NCBI RefSeq assembly: GCF_009766105.1
Contig: NZ_LMUH01000025.1
Span: 315,190-379,189 of the forward strand
Direction: 5' to 3'
DNA length: 64,000 bases
Source: Granulicella sp. S156
GTDB lineage: Bacteria; Acidobacteriota; Terriglobia; Terriglobales; Acidobacteriaceae
Positions within the stretch are counted from its first letter, which is position 1, and each line of letters starts with the position of its first letter. The notes beneath the pieces are model-generated. The model was given only the letters and a program-made list of their open reading frames with translations, searched no databases and was not told the origin of the DNA. Both the position numbers and the translations under genes were made by a program. This document shows positions 15,688-18,860 of this stretch, one piece after another.

Positions 15688-17232
15688 TCACAGTACCCCG
15701 TCCCACAGTCGCAACTCCGCCTCTTGAGGTTTTTCCTCAACGCGGCTCTGCACATCCAGAATCATCGTCTCGTGAGCCCCATTGAGATACTGCGGCCATG
15801 ACGGCAGCCCCGGTGCACCAGGATTCTCCCCACGGATAAACGCTATCCACGCCTGGTGCAACTGCGTGGCCAGCGCCGCCTCCGCAGCCGCGTTGTCGAT
15901 GTTCCGGTTCGGCTTGTCCCATACCAGCCCCAGTTCCTCCGAGTGGTACGCGTAGCTCTTGAACCTGCCGCTACTCGGCGCAAAGTCCAGCCGGTACATC
16001 CAAGCGCTCCCACCACCGCGTACATGCGCATCCGCCACGCGCACTGACGGCACCCAGTACTCCTCCGCCGTCAGCGCACGAATGCGTAGCCGTTCGTCGC
16101 TCATCTCGGGGTATAGCGCTTTGTACTTCGCATACACCGCCTGAAACCGTGCGACTGGCACATTCCCCAGGTCGGCACCGGTCGCATCATGCTGCGGATG
16201 CGGCCCCACGAACAGCGCGCTCTCCTCGCGATTGGTTCCAATCAGCAGCCGCTTTCCGCGTGTCGATCCTCTGGCAATCGTCTCAACAGGAAGCTTCGGC
16301 AATACCTTGCCTTCGACCTCGGCACGCAAGGGAAAGTGCTGCGGCCAGCTATCGATAAAACGCGTCTGTGCCGCAATCAGATCCGTCGCTGGAGCCGTCT
16401 TCAAGCCAGAGGCTCCGCGCTCGCCCCACACCTCGCCGAATCCCTTCGCCACCGCAGCTGCATTGGCCGCGGAGGACACACGCTCCGCGCCGCCGCTCTC
16501 CGAGATCATCTGCTGAAAGAGCCCCTGCGCCTCCGGGACGCCCATCAGGATGTCGGTAAGCTTTGCGCCCGCCGACTCCCCGCCCAACGTCACCCGCGCA
16601 GGGTCGCCGCCAAACGCGGCAACGTTCTCCTGCACCCACTGGAGTGCGAGGATCAGGTCGCGCAGCGCATTGTTCCCCGAGCCTGCGTACTCCGAGCCCA
16701 GCAGCGGCTCCATATCCAGAAATCCCAGCACCCCCAGCCGATAGGCGACTGTGATGCAGACGATTCCCTCGCGGGCAAATGGAGTGCCATCGAAGATCGG
16801 CGCGAAGGAGGACCCGCCGGTAAAGCCTCCACCGTGGATCCAAACGTAAACCGGCATCCCTGCACCGGGCTTCGCGGCTGCGCTTTCCGGAGTCCACACA
16901 TTCAGGTACAGGCAGTCCTCGCTCTTGCTGATCGCAGGATCGTCCGGCTGCATCGCCGCGGACGCAAAGCGCGTCGCATCACGCTCGCCCTTCCAGGGAG
17001 CATTTTTCACCGGAGACCTAAAACGCAGTGGACCTATCGGCGGCTCGGCAAACGGGACGCCGCGAAATACCCGTACTCCATTCACGCTCTCGCCGCGCAG
17101 AGCACCCGTGGGTGCCCTCACCACACACGACTCTGCCGCAACCTGCGCAAACAGCCTGTGCCCCTGCAACGACAGCGCCACCATCGCGCTCTTTGCGAGA
17201 AACCCTCTTCGGTTCATGCCATGTTCGATCAT
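15688..17232 (-). CDS. Type-B carboxylesterase, exported (Tat-like signal)
   Basis: Carboxylesterase/lipase family alpha/beta hydrolase of 514 aa. The N-terminus MNRRGFLAKSAMVALSL is a twin-arginine-type signal (RRGFL), so export in folded form is likely; translation may start at 17232 or, better matching the Tat signal, at 17217. Family signatures: FRGVPFAEPPIGPLRF near 57, EDCLYLNVWTP near 105, oxyanion HGGG at 133-136, nucleophile Ser220 in GGESAG, Glu in NREESALF and His in HSEELGLVW near 426. The triad is complete. It is a monocistronic gene followed by the 36-aa membrane peptide; substrate is unknown. Confidence 0.93.
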   Translation of the reverse strand: MIEHGMNRRGFLAKSAMVALSLQGHRLFAQVAAESCVVRAPTGALRGESVNGVRVFRGVPFAEPPIGPLRFRSPVKNAPWKGERDATRFASAAMQPDDPAISKSEDCLYLNVWTPESAAAKPGAGMPVYVWIHGGGFTGGSSFAPIFDGTPFAREGIVCITVAYRLGVLGFLDMEPLLGSEYAGSGNNALRDLILALQWVQENVAAFGGDPARVTLGGESAGAKLTDILMGVPEAQGLFQQMISESGGAERVSSAANAAAVAKGFGEVWGERGASGLKTAPATDLIAAQTRFIDSWPQHFPLRAEVEGKVLPKLPVETIARGSTRGKRLLIGTNREESALFVGPHPQHDATGADLGNVPVARFQAVYAKYKALYPEMSDERLRIRALTAEEYWVPSVRVADAHVRGGGSAWMYRLDFAPSSGRFKSYAYHSEELGLVWDKPNRNIDNAAAEAALATQLHQAWIAFIRGENPGAPGLPSWPQYLNGAHETMILDVQSRVEEKPQEAELRLWDGVL

Positions 17233-17336
17233 CCGGTCATTTTAGGTCAGCCTCGGCAACTGCACGAGCGACCTGGCACATGTAACAGTCCTTTCATCTT
17301 CGCCAAGCCTCATCCTGTGTTACAAATAACCATCGC

Positions 17337-17420
17337 ATGAGCACCCTTTTCCAATCTTTCGCTGCTCTGCCCACGCCTGCGTACACGTGTTGTTGTACAG
17401 GCCATAGCTGTCTGCGCTAA
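17337..17420 (+). CDS. Cys-rich leader peptide ORF upstream of the YeiH transporter
   Basis: A 27-codon ORF (ATG 17337, TAA 17418-17420) in the 5' region of the sulfur-type transporter operon. It ends in CCCTGHSCLR: three consecutive TGT Cys codons, a fourth Cys and a final Arg. I see no strong SD. Cys-rich leader peptides ahead of sulfur-metabolism genes are known in other phyla (notably actinobacteria), where ribosome stalling at Cys codons reports cysteine supply. Here the position (about 90 bp before the 35-aa ORF and 210 bp before the transporter) fits the same idea. Assignment as a regulatory uORF is inference. Confidence 0.5.
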   Translation: MSTLFQSFAALPTPAYTCCCTGHSCLR

Positions 17421-17508
17421 GTGCCCCCGCACCACCCTCTACAAAATCCAAATCAAGAACCGCTGTGGGCCCAGTTCTACGCATACACCGCCCGTTAAGG
17501 AGCCCTTT

Positions 17509-17616
17509 ATGCCGGCCAACTCACGCCGCCTCTCGCCAGACACCTGGGCCGTTCTGCTTTCGCTCGGCCTCGCTCTCCTCATTCGCTTCGGCGTTCTCAA
17601 AGTCGTGCCCTGGTAG
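17509..17616 (+). CDS. Small membrane protein (35 aa) in YeiH operon
   Basis: ATG at 17509 with a strong AAGGAG site 7 bases upstream, stop TAG at 17614-17616, and 15 bp to the transporter start. The peptide has a basic N-terminus (MPANSRRLSPDTW), one hydrophobic helix (AVLLSLGLALLIRFGVL) and ends KVVPW. The tight spacing implies co-translation with the YeiH-like transporter; it may be a small subunit or a translational coupler. No family recognised. Confidence 0.65.
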   Translation: MPANSRRLSPDTWAVLLSLGLALLIRFGVLKVVPW

Positions 17617-17631
17617 GCACCGGAGACCCTC

Positions 17632-18741
17632 ATGTCCACACCCACTCAAACCGTTCCCCAGATCGCGGACCCGGCCGTAGTCCAGACGGCGCCTGCATCC
17701 TCCACGAACCCGCTCGGCCTCATCCCCGGCCTGCTGCTGCTCGTCGTCGTGGGTTACGGCGGCAAGTTCATCGAGCAGTTCATCGCCCGCTACGGCAAGA
17801 CCCACCACCTGGTGCTGCCCAACATCGAGTACGTCCTCTGGGCCATCTTGATCGGTCTGCTCATCTCCAACACCGTTGGAGTACCTGCGCTCTTCCGCCG
17901 CGGCGTCGCCACCTACGAGTTCTGGCTCAAGACCGGCATCGTTCTGCTTGGAGCACGATTTATCCTCGGCGATATCGCCAAGCTCGGCGGCATCTCTCTG
18001 GCGCTCGTCTTCATCGAGATCGCCCTCGCCCTTACCTTCATGACCTTCCTGGGCAAGGGATTCAAACTCTCTCCCAAGCTCGTCACGCTGCTCGCGGTCG
18101 GCAGCTCTGTCTGCGGAGTCTCCGCCATCATTGCCACGCAGGGCGCCATCGAGGCCGACGAAGAAGACTCGTCGTACGCTATCGCCGCTATCCTTGCGCT
18201 CGGAGCGATCTCGCTCTTTATCTTCCCCCTCGTCGGCCACGCGCTGCACCTCTCCGACCACGCTTACGGCGTCTGGACCGGCCTTGCCGTAGACAACACC
18301 GCCGAGACCGCTGCGGCCGGTGCTCTTTACTCCGACGCCGCCGGCAAGATCGCCGTTCTCACCAAGACCTGCCGCAACGCCCTTATCGGCTTCGTTGTCC
18401 TTGGCTATGCCATCTACTGGGCCTCCAAGGGCCAGGCGGCGCAAGTCCAGAACAAGGCCGCTTTCCTCTGGTCGAAGTTCCCCAAGTTTGTTCTCGGCTT
18501 CCTGTTGATCTCGCTGCTTGCCACGGTCGGATTCTTCTCCAAGCCACAGCTGCTAGCGGTCGGGAACCTGTCGCGCTGGGCTTTTCTGCTCACCTTCGCC
18601 GGCGTCGGTCTGCGCACCAGCTTTCGCGACCTTAGCAAGCAAGGCATCCGTCCGTTCCTGGTCGGAGCCATCGGAGAGGTCGTCATCGCGCTTCTCACAC
18701 TCGGCCTCGTCTTTGGGGCAGACCACGTCTTCCATTTGTAG
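17632..18741 (+). CDS. YeiH family transporter (putative sulfate exporter family)
   Basis: Polytopic inner-membrane protein of 369 aa with about ten hydrophobic helices, matching the YeiH/UPF0324 'putative sulfate exporter' family: YEFWLKTGIVLLGARF, AVGSSVCGVSAIIAT, GLAVDNTAETAAAG and the C-terminal phrases AFLLTFAGVGLRTSFRDL and GVGLRTSF. The start is an ATG with GGAG nearby. Two small ORFs precede it, the Cys-rich leader and the 35-aa membrane peptide, and a 115-bp palindromic element follows directly. Transport of a sulfur compound is the family suggestion, supported loosely by the Cys leader; direct evidence is lacking. Confidence 0.88.
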   Translation: MSTPTQTVPQIADPAVVQTAPASSTNPLGLIPGLLLLVVVGYGGKFIEQFIARYGKTHHLVLPNIEYVLWAILIGLLISNTVGVPALFRRGVATYEFWLKTGIVLLGARFILGDIAKLGGISLALVFIEIALALTFMTFLGKGFKLSPKLVTLLAVGSSVCGVSAIIATQGAIEADEEDSSYAIAAILALGAISLFIFPLVGHALHLSDHAYGVWTGLAVDNTAETAAAGALYSDAAGKIAVLTKTCRNALIGFVVLGYAIYWASKGQAAQVQNKAAFLWSKFPKFVLGFLLISLLATVGFFSKPQLLAVGNLSRWAFLLTFAGVGLRTSFRDLSKQGIRPFLVGAIGEVVIALLTLGLVFGADHVFHL

Positions 18742-18745
18742 CCTC

Positions 18746-18860
18746 TAGAGCAGTTCCCGTATTGATGTGGAGTGGAAAACCCCTGCGAGTGCTGTTTTTC
18801 TTGGGGAAAAACAGCGTATAGGCCTGTGGCTCGCCATACACCTATACGGGAACTGCTCTA
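18746..18860. repeat. 115-bp palindrome-ended element, copy 1
   Basis: Begins TAGAGCAGTTCCCGTAT (18746-18762) and ends with its perfect 17-bp reverse complement (18844-18860). An internal 10-bp hairpin GCTGTTTTTC/GAAAAACAGC (18791-18800, 18806-18815) sits in the centre. A second copy of identical length is at 29203-29317, same orientation, with about ten base differences by eye. No coding capacity. The TA at each end would fit a TA target duplication, so a miniature transposable element is possible. Confidence 0.85.

Follow-up and report, generated by a model that had tools for sequence, protein, structure and literature searches.

The window, a stretch of 64,000 nucleotides of Granulicella sp. 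S156 (contig NZ_LMUH01000025.1, positions 315,190 to 379,189), holds on its forward strand a membrane transporter gene preceded by two small open reading frames. Both ORFs had been pointed out in a sequence-only reading of this DNA, and both were found where it had placed them. The first is a leader ORF of 27 codons (MSTLFQSFAALPTPAYTCCCTGHSCLR), running from the ATG at 17337 to the TAA at 17420 and backed by related Cys-run ORFs and by the frame test given below. Its candidate sensor codons (17388..17411) are three successive TGT codons (17388-17396, codons 18-20) and a fourth TGT at 17409-17411 (codon 25); counted back from the last codon, the triple run ends 7 codons earlier and the fourth Cys stands 2 codons earlier. 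An extended -10 promoter-like element, TGTTACAAA, is located at 17318..17326, and similar TGnTAnnA elements stand at a like distance before the leader ATG in related loci. This element ends 10 nt short of the leader ATG, so that a leaderless or almost leaderless transcript is probable. The leader is followed by a C-rich, G-poor spacer (17421..17496; 31 C and 13 G in 76 nt), a candidate Rho-loading region, and by the Shine-Dalgarno (SD) sequence AAGGAG (17497..17502) of the second small ORF, ahead of which SD-like motifs are also found in many related loci. This second ORF (17509..17616) encodes a 35-aa peptide with a single TM helix (MPANSRRLSPDTWAVLLSLGLALLIRFGVLKVVPW) and stops 15 nt before the transporter gene (17632..18741; 369 aa), which matches PF03601 (Cons_hypoth698, YeiH-like) with 264.8 bits and whose ATG at 17632 lies 211 nt from the leader stop. 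The neighbours are a divergent carboxylesterase gene upstream (15688-17232, PF00135) and an AhpC/TSA-type gene downstream. A search of the window and ten loci against Rfam returned no leader family, one tRNA being the only match.

The earlier description of the transporter as YeiH-type holds in the broad sense only, because the protein belongs to the PF03601 family but reaches 115.4 bits against the TIGR00698 (YeiH) cut-off of 232.6; the distant type with a LysR neighbour, at 111.1 bits, is below it too. This distant paralogue adjoins a LysR-like gene (LysR by reading) in three loci and is without a Cys leader in all of them: the two genes are tail-to-tail in L021 and L022 (genomes G005 and G010) and in tandem in L029 (G023). 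An ORF matching the 35-aa membrane peptide is present in 122 of 131 distinct loci, a recount of a set of 147 that held duplicates. Over 37 distinct orthologues, which all keep the residues D, A, A and W, the true frame has a pN/pS of 0.44 and the two shifted frames have 1.12 and 2.33. Neither Pfam nor NCBIfam has a model that the window peptide matches, and the NCBIfam match of one relative to YohP is sub-threshold (15 vs 58 bits). Judged by this conservation, the peptide seen ahead of the transporter in the sequence-only reading is a structural gene in its own right and not part of the sensor, and on the simplest reading it would be a one-helix partner of the transporter.

PF03601 matches, whether close or distant, occur in 23 of the 28 genomes of the genus Granulicella. 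Of 22 close homologues compared (identity 56% or more), 21 have a Cys-run ORF starting 284-520 nt upstream, L006 being the exception; none of eight distant homologues (27-31% identity) is preceded by one, bar a long TTG-started ORF in L030. Leaders in related loci include MKQIHTAAFCCMCCRMPRCRAGVCLL, MSRQTQSRRTSQCCPRCCCR and MKLPLPSATRQLLGCCCR. Taken alone, the Cys run of the window stands out only slightly, as 2% of upstream regions reach 4 Cys in 15 codons when shuffled; the significance of the ORF comes from the comparative evidence. Upstream of close homologues, 41 of 68 regions contain an ATG ORF with 4 or more Cys in 15 codons, as against 56 of 2720 dinucleotide shuffles, a difference that rules out a chance origin; the same threshold is reached on 4 of 68 reverse strands, ahead of none of nine distant YeiH paralogues and in 2 of 47 stretches taken from downstream. 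Lowering the threshold to 3 Cys gives 53/68 and 326/2720. Among 129 distinct upstream regions of homologues, an ATG ORF reaches 3 Cys in 15 codons in 78, some of these by chance since shuffles also reach 3, and 4 Cys in 48; about 40% are without a Cys ORF, many of them belonging to less similar homologues. When GTG starts are admitted beside ATG, 3 or more Cys in 15 codons are reached in 46 of 80 named loci, but so loose a criterion also catches some unlikely ORFs (e.g. L198). The close subfamily, delimited at E 1e-60, occurs in 17 of 247 genomes of the phylum, including that of the window (G000), all of them in the window's own family. Four truncated or duplicate loci (L018, L031, L042, L122) were left out of the leader, SD, shuffle, terminator, frame and peptide counts, L018 being kept in the cluster lists; loci with short upstream sequence were left out of the second terminator scan, the frame test, pN/pS and the 129-region and 131-locus counts.

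Two sets of leaders were compared in particular, group A (31 chosen leaders of the window's type) and group B (25 leaders of paralogue operons, 55-65% identity). In group B a promoter-like element of TTGAC/TA type stands directly before the ATG, and a terminator, ACCCACGC...GCGTGGGT with T-rich sequence behind it, is placed between the leader and the membrane-peptide gene. When 19 paralogue sequences were aligned, 152 of 152 terminator cells were paired and 3 of 8 pairs were changed on both sides, which none of 500 shuffles equalled. The alignment comprises 19 of 22 prepared sequences, those omitted being the near-duplicates L025 and L105 and also L007, whose stem is weaker and different (-13.2 kcal/mol). 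A candidate antiterminator is offered by the distal half of the leader, GCTGTTGCG, which can pair with the 5' arm and loop of the terminator, CGCAACAGC: 84.6% of its cells are paired, against 20-46% when it is slid. Less favourable are its pairing energy, with p<0.05 in 14 of 38 loci, and its covariation in the paralogue leaders, which is not above that of shuffles. Terminators are also present in a third set, L092-L098. A first terminator scan, with loops of up to 10 nt, missed many of those in group B. A second scan, with its limit set at -14 kcal/mol, picked out 58 of 130 regions; as it also fired on 80 of 650 shuffles, the case for termination rests on the group B terminators and the 19-sequence alignment.

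Cys-run ORFs are likewise found ahead of genes for sulfur assimilation. The cysD gene of G000 (L220, G000:C15:567000-580000) is preceded by VEVMCIAGCCCPRPFGCC, and other cysD leaders are VKVTCMCGCRCPQLFGCC in G003, MVMHRTPACLTCCSCCCQACSCGCACCR in G010, then a terminator, and MKGVYCCCQCFSCCCC in G023. Within Granulicella 4 of 10 cysD regions have such an ORF, the other six having none within 450-500 nt. In a set of 28 distinct cysD regions, mostly of the family and with no shuffle control, an ORF starting with ATG or GTG contains 4 or more Cys in 15 codons in 15 cases. A sample of the phylum gave, with at least 4 Cys, 8 of 8 in the window's own family and 1 of 17 in other families (L299, whose relative L298 has 3). 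In another family of the order, L204/L223 also have a Cys ORF before cysD. Altogether such ORFs were seen before cysD in L220, L211, L204, L225, L230, L233, L235, L296 and L297, several of them then followed by terminator-like hairpins.

A second form of the run is attached to a sulfur carrier of the ThiS family (PF02597; 58.2 bits with the SAMP1 model, just under its cut-off of 60), whose gene is followed in most loci by a ThiF-rhodanese gene of the MoeB/MoeZ kind. Behind the Gly-Gly of the carrier a tail with adjacent Cys codons is present in 20 of 25 Granulicella copies, three of 28 rows having been excluded as another carrier type; for 3 of the 20 tailed carriers (L266, L269, L280) no moeB motif is found downstream in the locus. 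In a family sample of 30 loci the carrier is fused to MoeB in 4, and the remaining 26 comprise 5 with a tail of at least 3 Cys, 4 with a separate Cys ORF 0-5 nt past the carrier stop and 17 with neither, the weak ORFs of L347 and L348 not being counted. The carrier loci are L116:190-489 (G000:C19:631789-632088), L254-L280 and L327-L356. At L229 (G045:C12) an open frame 502 to 82 nt before cysD encodes a carrier with a Cys-rich tail, AGVCRAMCCCAGAHTRPRRYR, and a strong hairpin with T-rich sequence stands directly before cysD. In mycobacteria, CysO is the partner of MoeZR. A role of mycobacterial MoeZR in cysteine biosynthesis has been described (PMC3227635, in excerpt). We read the distribution of these runs as a putative cysteine-attenuation regulon that covers many, but not all, of the cysD and carrier/moeB genes.

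We propose, as very probable, that the small-membrane-peptide/yeiH-like operon is under a ribosome-mediated cysteine attenuator whose sensor is the ORF at 17337-17420, and that the operon would be ON when cysteine is short. The earlier suggestion that a Cys-codon leader ties the transporter to cysteine status gains support from the Cys runs, start, frame and stop conserved in Acidobacteriaceae, and further support from the terminators of the paralogue leaders and the runs at many cysD and carrier/moeB genes; since similar tiny Cys genes stand before other sulfur genes in many relatives, they are most likely switches for cysteine shortage. As a check, that reading had asked for a conserved leader with a dN/dS below 1. 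Cys codons, start and stop are kept, but the dN/dS part fails, because the small clusters compared show no amino-acid constraint outside the Cys codons and no third-position variation in the shared ones. Leader peptide bodies diverge between clades, mainly the Cys runs being kept; in the small leader clusters compared, variable columns at codon positions 1/2/3 number 11/12/11, and the third position of Cys codons common to cluster members is invariant. Such even variation around kept Cys is expected if the codons, and not the peptide, matter. These observations bear on the proposal that the leaders encode Cys-rich peptides with a function of their own (metal-binding, redox or RiPP-like) and are not sensors. 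Their maintenance as ORFs and their very high Cys content would agree with it, but the clades have little except Cys in common, the codon positions vary equally, and the Cys codons are biased to TGT: the TGT:TGC ratio is 99:9 in group A and 121:51 in group B, against 5:88 in the yeiH-like genes of those loci and 7:18 in eight genes of the window. Terminators or terminator-like hairpins behind many group B and cysD leaders, and the recurrence of a similar run as the tail of an unrelated carrier protein, argue further against a functional peptide, which we regard as scarcely credible. It is also conceivable that TGTTGTTGT is a DNA or RNA motif bound by a protein, and not a translated run. The group A run is indeed nearly invariant at the nucleotide level, without variation at third positions. 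However, the Cys run shares its frame with the ATG nearest the promoter-like element in 47 of 48 promoter/ATG cases, drawn from 46 loci (a test limited to loci with both a promoter-like match and a run, in which related loci are not independent and L169 and L185 count twice). Moreover, in 19 paralogue leaders all 60 of the 60 gap runs inside the ORF are multiples of three, as are 29 of the 72 that follow the stop, and the Cys codons of paralogue leaders are interspersed with other codons. A binding motif is accordingly considered highly improbable.

How the signal from the cysteine attenuator would reach the operon has to be considered separately for group A, in which the last Cys lies 0-3 codons from the ORF end. 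Between leader and gene, the terminator scans revealed no intrinsic terminator in the window and no convincing one in group A; for 13 leaders of group A, RNAalifold returned no structure. The C/G ratio of the window spacer, 2.38 over 76 nt, is reached by 1.7% of the 76-mers of the window. Group A spacers have medians of 2.36 for C/G, 36% C and 15% G, with a folding energy per nt about half that of coding sequence; the group B spacer statistics come from 23 of the 25 leaders. The predicted accessibility of the SD over 26 group A leaders averages 0.21 with no ribosome, 0.21 with a ribosome stalled at Cys and 0.22 with one at the stop, and a model of SD sequestration was rejected for group A as this value is the same for all ribosome positions. 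It also weighs against translational attenuation in the style of M. smegmatis, in which the start region of the next gene is hidden in an RNA structure until a ribosome stalled on the leader opens it. The leaderless Cys uORFs of mycobacteria are described as translation attenuators (PMC9031893, PMC13236596, both in excerpt) and the group A leaders look alike, with Cys near the ORF end and a probably leaderless transcript, but the paralogue leaders carry intrinsic terminators instead; we consider this mechanism rather unlikely here. A boosting role, by ribosome delivery or reinitiation at the next gene, has been proposed for short leader genes generally (PMC4833913, in excerpt), and would make the Cys codons incidental. 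The distance of 62-105 nt from leader stop to next start in 12 group A examples argues against it, and it leaves both the Cys enrichment and the terminators unexplained; it can be given very little weight. Rho is favoured for the window copy because of the missing intrinsic terminator, the C-rich and G-poor spacer and the unchanged SD accessibility, and would thus, by elimination, be the likeliest off-switch.

The proposed attenuator would operate as follows. RNA polymerase would start just ahead of the leader ATG, and a ribosome would begin translation almost at the 5' end of the RNA. With ample Cys-tRNA, this ribosome would pass the TGT codons and leave at the stop, and transcription would end before the transporter gene. 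With little Cys-tRNA it would stall on the TGT codons, and termination would be prevented. In the paralogous operons the off-switch would be the intrinsic terminator, in competition with the candidate antiterminator from the distal half of the leader; in the window operon, Rho would load on the C-rich spacer unless it were blocked by a ribosome stalled near the stop. Of this scheme, the sequences themselves display the ORF family with its Cys runs and frame, the place of the promoter-like element, the TGT bias, the paralogue terminators and the runs at many cysD and carrier/moeB genes, while we infer the stalling, the sense of the response and the involvement of Rho. Points that speak against it are the homologues and cysD genes without a Cys ORF, the covariation and pairing energy of the antiterminator, the missing terminator of the window leader and the fact that in this leader just the fourth Cys is close to the stop.

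The physiological role may be sought in sulfur supply, to which the transporter and its one-helix partner would contribute, perhaps by uptake of sulfate or sulfite. No SulP match is found in G000, and neither G000 nor 11 relatives have a sulfate ABC permease over the cut-off, a strict one that 3 of 14 control genomes pass; the best score in G000 is 121 vs 240 bits. Uptake of a sulfur anion under cysteine shortage is plausible on these grounds, taken with the Cys leader on the window subfamily. In Salmonella, YeiH gives resistance to sulfite under the control of YeiE (PMC12880088, in excerpt), a protective function that would not obviously fit induction by cysteine shortage. Joining these elements, it can be tentatively suggested that Acidobacteriaceae have a Cys regulon controlled by codon-run attenuation. 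Its sensor would be a free leader ORF, an ORF that begins at the stop of the gene before it, or an in-frame tail behind the Gly-Gly of a ubiquitin-like sulfur carrier, the structural gene doubling as the leader of the next gene; the YeiH-like transporter and its one-helix partner would then form an importer, and not an exporter, of sulfur anions. Taken as a whole this picture is possible, with the balance somewhat against it.

Comparison with known systems places the proposed attenuator between several types. The closest are the leaderless poly-Cys uORFs of mycobacteria, on which the work of Canestrari in 2020 is reportedly the key paper. With these the present leaders have in common a short ORF, a Cys run near the stop and a position upstream of sulfur or cysteine genes, and the promoter-like element about 10 nt before the ATG makes a leaderless transcript probable here too; they differ by the phylum, by the target, which is a PF03601 transporter with a one-helix partner, and by the Cys run that is also fused to the tail of a carrier. 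That Cys-run leaders were already known in actinobacteria, as the sequence-only reading had stated, is borne out by the excerpts available: mycobacterial leaderless poly-Cys uORFs are described in PMC9031893, PMC13236596 and PMC9094748, a candidate is given in PMC4633059 and others are predicted in PMC1262725. The last of these, a 2005 survey of actinobacteria, did not, in the excerpt available, find a terminator-type architecture for cysteine. Its Cys leaders, like those of group A, are without terminator, and Rho is suggested there for mycobacterial cys operons, the tnaC-type Rho-dependent attenuator of E. coli being named as a parallel; in contrast, the paralogue leaders and some cysD leaders described here have intrinsic terminators or terminator-like hairpins. 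With E. coli tnaC the window leader shares a presumed stall site near the leader stop and then a C-rich, G-poor spacer, but it would sense a shortage of Cys-tRNA and not free tryptophan, and Rho is here an inferred component. The paralogue leaders resemble the trp/his/ilv attenuators in their run of leader codons, their intrinsic terminator and a candidate antiterminator directed to its 5' arm; they differ in that cysteine would be sensed and that a promoter-like element lies at the ATG, and the window copy has no terminator. The enterobacterial YeiE-YeiH pair (PMC12880088, in excerpt) has the PF03601 family in common with the window operon, in which a Cys leader replaces the adjacent LysR gene and the transporter is below the TIGR00698 cut-off.

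A literature search, with most subscription papers outside its reach, found no earlier acidobacterial Cys-run leader. The phylum, the YeiH-like target, the terminator-type architecture and the carrier-tail version appear to be new, Cys-run leaders themselves being known from mycobacteria. As of 2010, the predicted attenuators of the phylum had almost no assigned functions (PMC2965389, in excerpt). The proposed system would extend cysteine-sensing leaders to the Acidobacteriota and add a terminator-type architecture for cysteine, and would connect cysteine supply with a transporter family that is poorly understood and with an as yet unnamed one-helix protein. In the carrier-tail version the leader would be part of a structural gene, which would be unusual as a design.

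Two minor observations concern the same genome. A loose pattern, CCC[RS]-stop, was rejected as a regulon finder, its 13 sites in G000 mostly looking like ordinary coding sequence or chance; it did lead to the carrier tail (L116) and to a single, doubtful leader that stands ahead of a gene read as NmrA-like. This leader is a short ORF, MEAQTLLQPAGGRLLTCCCR, at L112 (G000:C15:142800-146300, minus strand), with its run 91 nt before the gene, and may be another Cys leader or chance. Directly behind the yeiH-like gene of the window, a perfect 17-nt inverted repeat (TAGAGCAGTTCCCGTAT/ATACGGGAACTGCTCTA) is found at 18746-18762 and 18844-18860, its arms 81 nt apart, and is possibly a mobile or REP-like element.
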